Both the position numbers and the translations under genes were made by a program. The notes below the pieces were generated by a model. It saw only the letters and a list, made by a program, of their open reading frames with translations. It made no database searches and had not been told where the DNA came from. A stretch of DNA of 48,052 nt from NCBI RefSeq assembly GCF_900156285.1, contig NZ_FTNC01000021.1, positions 1-48,052 on the forward strand, given 5' to 3'. Numbering within the stretch: position 1 is the stretch's first letter; each line of letters begins with the position of its first letter. Positions 28,921 through 32,930 of the stretch are shown here, piece after piece. This stretch comes from Halanaerobium kushneri. GTDB taxonomy: Bacteria > Bacillota > Halanaerobiia > Halanaerobiales > Halanaerobiaceae.

Positions 28921-29931
28921 ATGGGAAACTATAGTTCAGAGGAATTAATAAAATATATAAATAAATTTAGCGAAAAAAGAATAATGGTTCTGGGAGATTT
29001 AATAGCTGATAAATTTATTATCGCTGATCCAGAAAGGCTTTCTCGCGAGGCACCGGTTCTGATTTTAAAACATCAGCAGGAGAAAATCCTGCCTGGTGGT
29101 GGAGCCAATGCAGCTGCCAATATTGCCAGCCTGGGAGCAGAGGTTGATCTGCTTGGTGTTGTAGGAGAGGATCTGGCAGCAGAAGCTCTGATTGAAGAGC
29201 TTGAAGAACGGCAGATTTTAACTGCAGGAGTCTTTAAGGACAGAAGCAGGCCGACTGCTGAGAAAACAAGGATTCTGGCCGGTGGTGAGCAGATTGTTCG
29301 CCAGCAGGTGGTAAGGGTTGATAAAGTTAAGAGTTTTGATATCAGTACTCAGCTTCAGCAGAAATTAAATTCTTACCTTAAGGAAAATATCGCCAGCAGT
29401 GATGCGATTCTTTTTTCGGATTACGGAAACGGAATTTTTAATCAGAATAGTACGGCTCAGTTTGTAGAAGCTGCCGCTGCTGCCGGAAAAGAGTCAGCTG
29501 TAGACAGCCGTTATCAGTTAAATCAGTTTAAGGGAGCTGTAATTGCAACTCCTAATTTAGAAGAAGCCTCTGCTATTTATGGCAGGGAACTGAGATCTCA
29601 GGCTGAAGTAGAAAAAGCTGGTCTAGAAATGAGGAAAAAGCTGGAATTAAAATATCTGCTTATAACTCAGGGTGGAGATGGAATGACTCTTTTTGCACCC
29701 GGAGATAAAATAGAGCATATTGCCGCTGCTAATTTTAGTGAAGTTTTTGATGTAACAGGTGCTGGAGATACCGTGGTTGGTACACTGGTTCTGGCCCTGG
29801 CGGCAGGTGCACCGGCAGAGATTGCGATTAGAATTGCCAATTATGCTGCCGGGATTGTTGTCCGCAAAAGTGGGGTTGCTTCAGTTACAGGCGCCGAATT
29901 AATCAGGGAAGTGAATAAAAATGACAGCTAA
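28921..29931 (+). CDS. rfaE1: D-glycero-beta-D-manno-heptose-7-phosphate kinase
   Basis: A PfkB-family kinase equal to the N-terminal half of HldE, which phosphorylates heptose 7-phosphate at C1 for ADP-heptose synthesis. Motifs: VLGDLIADKFI at the N-terminus, PGGGANAAANIASLGA for sugar binding, and VTGAGDTVVGTLVLAL with the catalytic Asp near the C-terminus. The 336 residues match the kinase module, here a separate gene. It overlaps the adenylyltransferase gene by 11 bases. The isomerase, phosphatase and epimerase steps are not in the window. Confidence 0.92.
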   Translation: MGNYSSEELIKYINKFSEKRIMVLGDLIADKFIIADPERLSREAPVLILKHQQEKILPGGGANAAANIASLGAEVDLLGVVGEDLAAEALIEELEERQILTAGVFKDRSRPTAEKTRILAGGEQIVRQQVVRVDKVKSFDISTQLQQKLNSYLKENIASSDAILFSDYGNGIFNQNSTAQFVEAAAAAGKESAVDSRYQLNQFKGAVIATPNLEEASAIYGRELRSQAEVEKAGLEMRKKLELKYLLITQGGDGMTLFAPGDKIEHIAAANFSEVFDVTGAGDTVVGTLVLALAAGAPAEIAIRIANYAAGIVVRKSGVASVTGAELIREVNKNDS

Positions 29932-30406
29932 AATTATGGACCTCGATGCTTTGAAAAAAGAAATTGATGCCCGAAAAGAGGCAGGAGAATTAATTGTTTT
30001 TACAAATGGTTGCTTTGATATCCTGCATGTTGGTCATATTCGCTATTTGAAAAAAGCTGCTTCTCTGGGTGATAAGCTGGTGCTGGCTGTAAATAGTGAC
30101 AGTTCAGTTAGAAAGCTGAAAGGGAAAACACGTCCTCTGATGCCGGAGGCTGACAGACTCGAAATGCTGGCTGCTCTGGAAATGGTCGATTATCTAATAC
30201 TCTTTTCGGAAGCTGATGCCACTAACTTACTGGAGCAGATTAAACCACAGGTTTATGTTAAAGGTGGAGATTACAGAATTGAAGATCTACCTGAGGCGGA
30301 GACAGTTTACAGTTATGGTGGAAAAATAGTTTTAATTACCGAGGTTAAGGGAAAATCAACAACAAATTTAATTAAAAAGATAAGGCAGATTAAAGATGAA
30401 AAATAG
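29921..30406 (+). CDS. rfaE2: D-glycero-beta-D-manno-heptose 1-phosphate adenylyltransferase
   Basis: The 161-residue nucleotidyltransferase equal to the C-terminal half of HldE; it makes ADP-heptose from heptose 1-phosphate and ATP. The HxGH motif is in TNGCFDILHVGHIRYL, and KPQVYVKGGDY and GKSTTNLIKKI are the other family segments. ATG 29921 lies inside the kinase gene. Presence of both modules implies a heptose-containing LPS inner core or another ADP-heptose glycan. Confidence 0.93.
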   Translation: MTAKIMDLDALKKEIDARKEAGELIVFTNGCFDILHVGHIRYLKKAASLGDKLVLAVNSDSSVRKLKGKTRPLMPEADRLEMLAALEMVDYLILFSEADATNLLEQIKPQVYVKGGDYRIEDLPEAETVYSYGGKIVLITEVKGKSTTNLIKKIRQIKDEK

Positions 30407-30500
30407 TCAACTACAAATTCTTATTCTGCTGACCCTCTTACTTTTAGGAGTGACAATGCTGGAATTGGGTATTTCATTTCAGGATTTGATGAGTTTTTGA
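30396..30500 (+). CDS. 34-residue single-helix membrane peptide (candidate)
   Basis: A short frame starting at ATG 30396, inside the last codons of rfaE2 (11-base overlap), and ending at TGA 30498-30500. It encodes 34 residues: a polar start (MKNSQLQ), one hydrophobic helix (ILILLTLLLLGVTMLELG) and a short polar tail. AAGGCAG lies about 11 bases ahead, a weak site, but overlap with rfaE2 could couple translation. The helix pattern is more regular than expected from chance, though there is no homology support. Confidence 0.4.
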   Translation: MKNSQLQILILLTLLLLGVTMLELGISFQDLMSF

Positions 30501-30532: not shown

Positions 30533-31159
30533 TTGTTTAAAGAGAAGGAAGAAGAAGAGATTATAGAGATGGCCCAGGCTGGAAATGACTTTGCAATAGA
30601 ATATCTAATAGATCAAAATATGGATATAGTCTATGCTAAGGCCAGATTCTTTTTTATCAAGGGTCTGGATCGGGATGATGTTATTCAGGAGGGACGAGTT
30701 GGACTGTACAAAGCAATCCGGGATTTTAAAGAAGATAAAGGAGCTTCTTTTCGAGGTTTTTCTCAGCTTTGTGTACACAGACAGCTGGTTTCTGCTATAA
30801 AAAAGGCAAATCGCCAGAAACACATGCCTTTAAATACCTCTGCTTCTCTTGATAAAAGCCTGGACTATGGCAATGAAACGGGAAGAACTTTTAATGAAAT
30901 TTTACCAGATGAAGGAGAAAATCTAGAAAAGAAATTTATCTGTCAGGAAACTTTAACTACAATTATTGACGAACTCTCGGAAGAATTAACAGATCTTGAA
31001 TGGAATGTGTTTATGCTTTATCTGGATAGTAAATCCTATCAGGAAATATCCGAAGATCTTGATATTAATGTCAAAACGGTTGACAATGCTCTGCAGAGGG
31101 CCAGAAAGAAAATTGATGATCTGCGTGAACATTACAACCTCAAAGGAGTTGTTAATTAA
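30533..31159 (+). CDS. sigH: RNA polymerase sigma-H (SigH/Spo0H family)
   Basis: A 208-residue sigma-70 family factor of the sigma-H group that, in Firmicutes, directs transition-phase, competence and sporulation genes. Region 2 carries KGLDRDDVIQEGRVGLYKAI and DFKEDKGASFRGFSQLCVHRQ, very close to Bacillus SigH; NRQKHMPLNTSASLDKSL follows. Region 4 has the helix-turn-helix YQEISEDLDINVKTVDNALQ. TTG start 30533 follows GGGGGGAT. comFC starts two bases after its stop, and a sigma-H-type promoter precedes hpf downstream. Confidence 0.92.
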   Translation: MFKEKEEEEIIEMAQAGNDFAIEYLIDQNMDIVYAKARFFFIKGLDRDDVIQEGRVGLYKAIRDFKEDKGASFRGFSQLCVHRQLVSAIKKANRQKHMPLNTSASLDKSLDYGNETGRTFNEILPDEGENLEKKFICQETLTTIIDELSEELTDLEWNVFMLYLDSKSYQEISEDLDINVKTVDNALQRARKKIDDLREHYNLKGVVN

Positions 31160-31161
31160 AA

Positions 31162-31908
31162 TTGAAAGTACTGGATATTTTAAAAGATTTGGTTTATCCT
31201 GAAAAACCTGTCTGTCTTGCCTGTGGTCGCAGATATGATCATTCCGAAATAGAAGGGGTTTGTGACCGCTGTCTGGCCCGTTTTTCTTTTATTACAGATG
31301 CCTGCCCGGTCTGTGGAAGAGAGGTTGTTCCGGCAACCTTAATTGAAGGGCAGCCCTGTCCGGAATGTAAGGAAGAAAGACCGCCTTACAATTATGCCCG
31401 CAGTGTTTTCACTTATTCAGGTTATGCCAGAGAAGTACTTTTGGAATATAAATATGGTCATCGGCCAGATCTGGCTGAGCCATTTTCGCAGATGTTATTT
31501 CTCTATTATGATGAATATTTTAAAGATCGGGATATAGATTTTTTAATTCCAGTACCAATGCATGGTGACCGCAAAACATATCGCGGTTATAATCAGGCTG
31601 CCAGACTGGCAAAAGAGCTTTCCAAAAAAATAAAAGTCGAATATAAGGATGTGCTTTTTCGAGTTAAAAATTCACTCCCACTTTATACTTTGACCAAGAA
31701 GGCAAGAAAACTGGAGCTGGAGGGAGCTTTTGAGTTAAAAGATAAGATTGATCCCGCTATTTTTGAGGACAAAAACATTTTGATTATTGACGATATAATT
31801 ACAACAGGTACCACTTCTTCTGAGATTTCGCATTTTGTTTTAAAAGAGATGGGTGCTAAAAATGTTTATGTGCTGACAGCAGCTTCAGTACCGGTTAAGT
31901 TAGACTAG
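31162..31908 (+). CDS. comFC: ComF family phosphoribosyltransferase-like protein
   Basis: ComFC takes part in DNA uptake and transformation in Firmicutes. The 248 residues begin with zinc-ribbon-like CxxC pairs (CLACGR, CDRCL, CPVCGR, CPEC) followed by a phosphoribosyltransferase domain with the PRPP loop NILIIDDIITTGTT. TTG start at 31162; AAAGGAG in the end of sigH serves as ribosome site. Its direct coupling to sigH agrees with sigma-H control of competence known in other Firmicutes. No comFA is adjacent. Confidence 0.9.
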   Translation: MKVLDILKDLVYPEKPVCLACGRRYDHSEIEGVCDRCLARFSFITDACPVCGREVVPATLIEGQPCPECKEERPPYNYARSVFTYSGYAREVLLEYKYGHRPDLAEPFSQMLFLYYDEYFKDRDIDFLIPVPMHGDRKTYRGYNQAARLAKELSKKIKVEYKDVLFRVKNSLPLYTLTKKARKLELEGAFELKDKIDPAIFEDKNILIIDDIITTGTTSSEISHFVLKEMGAKNVYVLTAASVPVKLD

Positions 31909-31993: not shown

Positions 31994-32022
31994 GCAGGAA
32001 TTATTTTCACTTTGTAGAATAA
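31994..32022 (+). promoter_or_regulatory. sigma-H-type promoter of hpf
   Basis: GCAGGAATT (31994-32002), an 11-base spacer, and GTAGAATAA (32014-32022). This fits the Bacillus sigma-H consensus RnAGGAwWW-N11/12-RnnGAATww at every defined position. A sigma-A-like TATAAT (32023-32028) overlaps downstream, so dual use is possible. The transcript would begin near 32030 and hpf starts at 32086. Confidence 0.7.
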
Positions 32023-32085
32023 TATAATATACAGAGAAAAGCAAAATATAATAATAATAATAGTTGTATGAGAGGAGTGAGCTTC

Positions 32086-32670
32086 ATGAAAATTATGACC
32101 TATGGTAAAAACATTGATGTTACCCCGGCTCTAAAGAAGCACGCAGAGGAGAAGGTAGAGAAGCTGGAGAAGTATTTCAATGGAGAACCGATGGAAGTTC
32201 AGATCTCCATGGAAGTAGAAAAAGAAAGACATATTGTCGAAGTTACAGCCTTTGTTAAGGGTCTTATCCTTAGAGGTGAGGAAGCTTCCGGTGATATGTA
32301 TGCTTCTATCGATGGTGTAATGGATAAACTTGAACGCCAGGTTAGAAAATATAAAACTAAGATTCACGATAGATACATTGAGAAGAAACAGGAATACAAA
32401 GAAGAATATAAGGAGAAGCGCAAAGAACAGGTCTTAAATCATCAGTTAGGTAATGAGGAAGAAAATATTGATACTGATGTATTTGAGCCGCAGGTTGTGA
32501 GGACCAAGCGTTTTCCAATGAAGCCGATGAATGTAGAAGAGGCCTGTATGCAGATGGACCTCTTAGATCATGACTTCTTTGTTTTCCATAATGCTGATAC
32601 AGAAGAAACCAATGTGGTTTATAAGCGAAACGATGGAAATTATGGCTTGATTGAGCCGACATTTGGTTAA
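32086..32670 (+). CDS. hpf: ribosome hibernation promoting factor, long form
   Basis: Long HPF dimerises 70S ribosomes into inactive 100S particles in slow growth. The 194 residues comprise the N-terminal RaiA-type domain (about 1-100, MKIMTYGKNIDVTPALKKHA) , a charged linker rich in Lys and Glu, and the C-terminal dimerisation domain (about 135-194, RTKRFPMKPMNVEEACMQM). ATG 32086 follows AGAGGAG; the ATG at 32068 precedes that site and was rejected. In B. subtilis the homologue (yvyD) is under sigma-B and sigma-H, in line with the promoter seen here. Confidence 0.95.
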   Translation: MKIMTYGKNIDVTPALKKHAEEKVEKLEKYFNGEPMEVQISMEVEKERHIVEVTAFVKGLILRGEEASGDMYASIDGVMDKLERQVRKYKTKIHDRYIEKKQEYKEEYKEKRKEQVLNHQLGNEEENIDTDVFEPQVVRTKRFPMKPMNVEEACMQMDLLDHDFFVFHNADTEETNVVYKRNDGNYGLIEPTFG

Positions 32671-32703
32671 GATAATAATAGTATTAGATAAGATTGAATT
32701 AAG

Positions 32704-32732
32704 AGGGATGCCCTGGCGGGCTCCCTTTTTTT
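32704..32732 (+). terminator. intrinsic terminator after hpf
   Basis: AGGGATGCCC pairs with GGGCTCCCT (one bulged T), then a run of eight T. Confidence 0.85.
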
Positions 32733-32879: not shown

Positions 32880-32930
32880 TTTACAAATGGAATTATATTA
32901 TTATAATACGATTGAAAATTTTTTAATCGT
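32880..32930 (+). promoter_or_regulatory. proximal promoter of secA with a hairpin at the transcript start
   Basis: TTTACA (32880-32885), 16 bases, TATAAT (32902-32907). Directly after it ACGATT (32908-32913) and AATCGT (32925-32930) form a stem around an A/T-rich centre, at or near the 5' end of the transcript. Confidence 0.6.

Follow-up and report, generated by a model that had tools for sequence, protein, structure and literature searches.

Sigma-H and Ribosome Hibernation in Described Systems

In Bacillus subtilis, an hpf reporter requires its sigma-H site, and under nutrient limitation hpf depends on sigma-H (PMC12421865), a dependence that agrees with the original prediction, in which the B. 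subtilis gene was named as a sigma-H target. In PMC8066629, sigma-H control of B. subtilis hpf is attributed to Drzewiecki et al. (1998), and experimental proof of the link between hpf and sigma-H was found in the literature for B. subtilis only. The sigma-H promoter of B. subtilis hpf (yvyD) and the one described below, from the salt-loving Halanaerobium kushneri, share both the consensus and the gene, and a sigma-H-type promoter before hpf is of a known kind. The two systems differ in that B. subtilis also uses sigma-B at hpf and sporulates, whereas Halanaerobium is without SpoIVA; the SigH-like matches of this lineage included no sigma-B-type factor.

The second system to be compared is the SigH regulon of C. 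difficile, in which promoters of the form AGGA ... GTAGAAT precede division, translation and stationary-phase genes, as they do here (PMC7438776). Its targets include ftsZ, minC, spoVS and frr, and the target table also holds CD0142, an “RNA-binding protein” that might correspond to hpf (PMC7438776). Unlike Halanaerobium, C. difficile has one SigH, with sporulation genes within its regulon.

The hpf Locus of Halanaerobium kushneri

The window, that is, the whole stretch of 48,052 nucleotides analyzed here (contig NZ_FTNC01000021.1), carries GCAGGAATT-N11-GTAGAATAA at 31994-32022, about 64 nt before the ATG of hpf at 32086. Read directly from the window, all 15 defined positions of RNAGGAWWW-N11-RNNGAATWW are matched, and the full sigma-H consensus with the right spacing that had been claimed for this site is thus present. 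The features of the locus are listed below.

30396-30500, + strand: small ORF directly upstream of sigH2, encoding a hydrophobic peptide of 34 aa, MKNSQLQILILLTLLLLGVTMLELGISFQDLMSF; unannotated, with counterparts in the order
30533-31159, + strand: sigH2, a paralogue of the SigH-type sigma factor with a TTG start, assigned by NCBIfam, tree and synteny
31162-31908, + strand: comF (comFC-like), in the interval from sigH2 to hpf, named by synteny with a TIGR00201 score of 95.6 bits, below the cut-off of 233.6
31994-32002, + strand: -35 element GCAGGAATT of the sigma-H-type hpf promoter, kept in the order and by the majority of the phylum sample
32003-32013, + strand: spacer of 11 nt, ATTTTCACTTT, of the length that is enriched in the genome (12 nt is at background)
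32014-32022, + strand: -10 element GTAGAATAA of the sigma-H-type hpf promoter, conserved in the order
32023-32028, + strand: TATAAT-like hexamer directly 3′ of the -10 element, possibly a weak sigma-A -10 or an AT-rich start region
32071-32077, + strand: ribosome-binding site of hpf, AGAGGAG, kept in relatives
32086-32670, + strand: hpf, ribosome hibernation promoting factor (HPF/YfiA family), NCBIfam TIGR00741, 92.8 bits against a cut-off of 40.9
32701-32729, + strand: stem of a rho-independent terminator 3′ of hpf, with a T run behind it (fold -18 kcal/mol, z -3.2)
32880-32907, + strand: sigma-A-type promoter of secA, TTTACA-16-TATAAT, 11/12 match

The product of hpf falls into the HPF/YfiA family by its TIGR00741 domain. 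Because a good terminator lies behind it and secA has a sigma-A-type promoter of its own, hpf looks like a separate transcription unit. A candidate sigma-H-type site before secA, GCAGGAATG...GGAATTA, was left uncounted for its 14-nt spacing and the good sigma-A promoter there. The order comFC-hpf-secA-prfB of B. subtilis is the same here. The raiA-motif RNA of Rfam is known from comFC-raiA neighborhoods; the search for it gave zero matches in the window and 13 related loci.

Conservation of the Promoter

An hpf gene was detected in 35 of the 38 genomes of the order, and 34 of the upstream stretches, with readable DNA, were scored over 250 nt each at the 15 defined positions, with dinucleotide shuffles of the same stretches as the chance baseline; AT-rich Halanaerobium DNA favors the W positions, a bias that the shuffles account for. 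All 34 upstreams reach at least 13/15 (9.3 expected from the shuffles), 32 reach at least 14/15 (0.92 expected), and 19 carry the exact motif (0.03 expected), while control upstreams, those of both sigH genes in the same genomes, peak at 11-13/15 and reach 14 once. The bases of GCAGGAAT and TTTGTAGAAT are without exception invariant in the 11 Halanaerobium species compared, and most spacer positions and both flanks vary. Among the hpf upstreams of the order, a spacer of 11 nt is found in the family of the window, in f5 and f7 and in the greater part of f4, and one of 12 nt in f2 and f6 and in the greater part of f3. Relatives thus keep the promoter at the corresponding place before hpf; a lack of such conservation was the first observation by which the original prediction could have failed, and the order upstreams gave the opposite result. 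On these comparisons, we regard 31994-32022 with high confidence as a real, conserved sigma-H-type element.

Beyond the order, both genomes of the sister order of the class carry the hpf motif at 14/15 each. A phylum sample of 68 hpf upstreams from the same GTDB phylum contains 42 with at least 14/15 (1.0 expected) and 18 with the exact motif (0.03 expected). Most of these sites lie 65-110 nt ahead of the hpf start, and about 40% of the sample stays below 14/15; one upstream, that of G044, was taken with an offset of about 40 nt from the gene start and scored 12, by which the result is unaffected. The conservation of the hpf upstream across the phylum sample therefore indicates that the link between hpf and sigma-H is old. 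It had been suggested that this control is kept in a diderm Firmicute lineage, which holds as far as conservation in the order is concerned, but the wording is too narrow for a link found across the phylum sample.

The distribution of SigH itself was also compared with that of the motif. Six fully scored genomes are without a SigH match (G041, G063, G068, G106, G128, and G145), and in five of them the motif is absent (11-12/15); the exception is G041, for which a congener, another species of the genus, does carry SigH. In f22, a lineage with a divergent SigH, the hpf upstream is also without the motif (12-13/15). The numbers are small, but the SigH-less and divergent-SigH lineages point the same way.

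Persistence after the Loss of Sporulation

None of the 12 Halanaerobium genomes has SpoIVA, nor do families f2, f4, and f7, but 11 other genomes in the order possess it. Late sporulation sigma factors, of the sporulation type and about 250 aa long, have the same distribution and are missing from Halanaerobium; Spo0A is retained in 37 of the 38 order genomes. SpoIVA and the sporulation-type sigma factors are gone and the promoter stays, and therefore the sigma-H-type promoter of hpf outlived sporulation here. The earlier surmise that it might be kept even where sporulation is lost is borne out by its conservation in the families without SpoIVA.

Sigma-H-Type Sites in the Genome

For the whole genome, matches to AGGAWWW-N11-RNNGAATWW were counted by pattern searches and in targeted stretches. 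There are 46 matches at a spacing of 11 in this genome, against about 17 for each of the other spacings (7-10 and 13-16; Poisson, 7e-9), and 18 at a spacing of 12, which is at background. The N11 matches are intergenic in 36 of 46 cases, compared with 3 of the 18 N12 matches (Fisher, 9e-6), and an ORF lies downstream of 34 of the 46. Two other Halanaerobium genomes gave 28 matches versus 2 in the control and 30 versus 3, respectively.

Genes behind the N11 sites of this genome include hpf, minC, ftsA, zapA, hfq, ferritin, pyrH, and xerC, two universal stress proteins, a Lon-like protease, a HIT protein and a macro-domain gene, as well as GH13 and branching-enzyme genes, phosphomannomutase and alkaline phosphatase, names without a Pfam match having been read from the sequence by the analyst. 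Gene calls were supplied by a simple ORF finder, and therefore individual members of the regulon are provisional. Exact sites recur in at least one of the two other Halanaerobium genomes before the orthologues of hpf, zapA, pyrH, hfq, ftsA, ferritin, and HIT, and likewise before those of GH13, branching enzyme, phosphomannomutase, the macro-domain gene, xerC, and one stress protein; the zapA and pyrH sites are also exact in a spore-former of another family. Judged by its predicted members, the N11 target set reads as a regulon of stationary phase, stress and division.

There are further sites outside this genome. In the Halanaerobium genome G011 (loci L321, L335, and L339), exact sites stand before prepilin-like, PilB/GspE-like and dnaG-like genes, named from their sequences, which may point to a connection with type IV pili and with a dnaG-rpoD operon. 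In the spore-forming order member G031 (L374, G031:C1:782473), an exact site precedes a spoVS-like gene, which fits the SigH regulon of C. difficile.

Two SigH-Type Factors

The promoter had been described as lying close to sigH itself, 0.8 kb away, and this does not hold: the neighbor is a class-specific paralogue, and the canonical sigH is found behind rlmB on another contig (G000:C52:847-1503, - strand, locus L070), in the cluster radA-disA-carD-ispD-ispF-gltX-cysS-thyX-rlmB-sigH. The product of 30533-31159 exceeds the threshold of NF006148 (219.8 against 208) and stays below that of TIGR02859 (211.5 against 294.8), while canonical SigH scores 336.6 with TIGR02859 and passes both NCBIfam SigH models well. 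The two proteins are 47% identical. By locus and by tree, 30533-31159 is not the orthologue of the canonical gene, the canonical copy standing behind rlmB and SigH2 forming a separate monophyletic clade (support 1.0), which also contains the sister order of the class but, of the phylum members in the tree, no others. Among named organisms, Halanaerobium sp. 5-U2 and H. saccharolyticum are the closest by SigH2. Two SigH-type genes are present in almost all genomes of the order, and Halanaerobium, a lineage lacking SpoIVA, keeps both. Throughout the order sigH2 lies upstream of comF and hpf, at about 9 kb in one genome.

The canonical SigH of the same genome differs from SigH2 in locus and shares with it the family and the conserved regions 2.4 and 4.2. 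Arg96 and Thr100 of B. subtilis SigH are region 2.4 residues with a role in recognition; the equivalent of Arg96 is kept, SigH2 carries Ser in place of Thr100, and the two factors have a nearly identical recognition helix in region 4.2. With recognition residues that are the same or conservatively replaced, both SigH factors may therefore read the same promoters. Autoregulation was considered and rejected, a sigma-H site being missing upstream of both sigH1 and sigH2.

The small ORF at 30396-30500 overlaps the heptose adenylyltransferase gene at its end and has a counterpart in 26 of the 31 SigH2 loci of the order. Its peptide has one hydrophobic segment with a kept pattern like LL...(A/G)T..(D/E)LGISF, the pN/pS among 11 Halanaerobium copies is 0.34, and Pfam and NCBIfam gave zero matches above cut-off. 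A role of the peptide as membrane regulator of SigH2 is attractive but no more than a guess. A SigH paralogue paired with a small membrane peptide was not found described in the literature, nor did we find literature on SigH paralogues or on hibernation in Halanaerobium. Upstream, at 28921-30406 (+ strand), heptose-7-phosphate kinase and heptose-1-phosphate adenylyltransferase have a separate gene each, which fits a diderm envelope, and this pair adjoins sigH2 in many families of the order.

Which Holoenzyme Reads the hpf Promoter

Very probably, 31994-32022 is the promoter from which a sigma-H-type holoenzyme induces hpf upon slowdown, leading to ribosome hibernation, through a link older than the loss of sporulation. 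As growth slows, a sigma-H-type factor would become available, and RNA polymerase with canonical SigH, SigH2 or both would read the site; hpf would be transcribed as its own short unit, with its own promoter and a terminator behind, and HPF would pair ribosomes into inactive, protected dimers. Transcription by sigma-H, its timing and the effect on ribosomes are inferred here by analogy to B. subtilis. The link would have arisen before Halanaerobium lost sporulation, and it may have been kept because sigma-H here still runs a regulon of stationary-phase, stress and cell-division genes.

A special case of this explanation, with which its probability overlaps, is that SigH2 and not canonical SigH reads the promoter, so that sigH2, comF and hpf form a local regulatory module in which the peptide is possibly a membrane regulator. 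The lasting association of the three genes in the order, the fully supported monophyly of SigH2 and the conserved small ORF before its gene speak for such a module, which we nevertheless hold as a tentative and rather unlikely specification, since comF-hpf-secA is an old neighborhood on its own and the adjacency may be inherited by chance, the canonical consensus is kept at hpf in phylum members with one SigH, and the recognition residues barely differ between the paralogues. An assignment of the hpf promoter to SigH2 by sequence was tried and rejected for the likeness of these residues and for the GTAGAAT -10, which the SigH sites of C. difficile share (PMC7438776).

Alternatively, sigma-A could mainly transcribe hpf from the overlapping TATAAT at 32023-32028, with the sigma-H motif being minor or vestigial. 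Of the 34 order genomes, 31 do have a TATAAT-like hexamer (at least 5/6) at -3 to +6 nt relative to the -10 element, and the Listeria hpf homologue has a sigma-A promoter (PMC8066629). However, a -35 of at least 4/6 at 16-18 nt accompanies it in only 2 of the 34 and not in the genome of the window, the hexamer drifts from -3 to +6 in relatives while GAAT is fixed, and a vestigial site is not expected to remain exact in non-sporulating lineages; sigma-A as the main reader is accordingly improbable, although it may contribute to hpf transcription through the hexamer. That the motif arose by chance in AT-rich intergenic DNA, for which one may point to the approximately 17 occurrences of the looser pattern to be expected at each spacing in this genome, is refuted by its conservation in 34 genomes of the order and in the larger part of the phylum sample and has practically no likelihood left.

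Implications for Sigma-H

New are the deep conservation of the hpf promoter, its survival past the loss of sporulation, and the linked SigH paralogue. A bolder reading, which we consider doubtful, is that the second sigma-H of Halanaerobiia, checked by a small membrane peptide of about 34-57 residues encoded in the ORF directly before its gene, is a dedicated, RpoS-like stationary-phase factor kept after sporulation was lost; if true, it would serve hpf, hfq, ferritin, and stress and division genes. The pairing of the SigH paralogue with the small membrane peptide is testable by gene removal. Reading of 31994-32022 by a sigma-H-type holoenzyme, whichever paralogue is involved, would have a wider meaning: because the hpf promoter is kept across the phylum sample and in lineages that lost spores, it suggests that an original and durable job of sigma-H was preparation for starvation, with ribosome hibernation, division and stress functions, and not only the start of sporulation.
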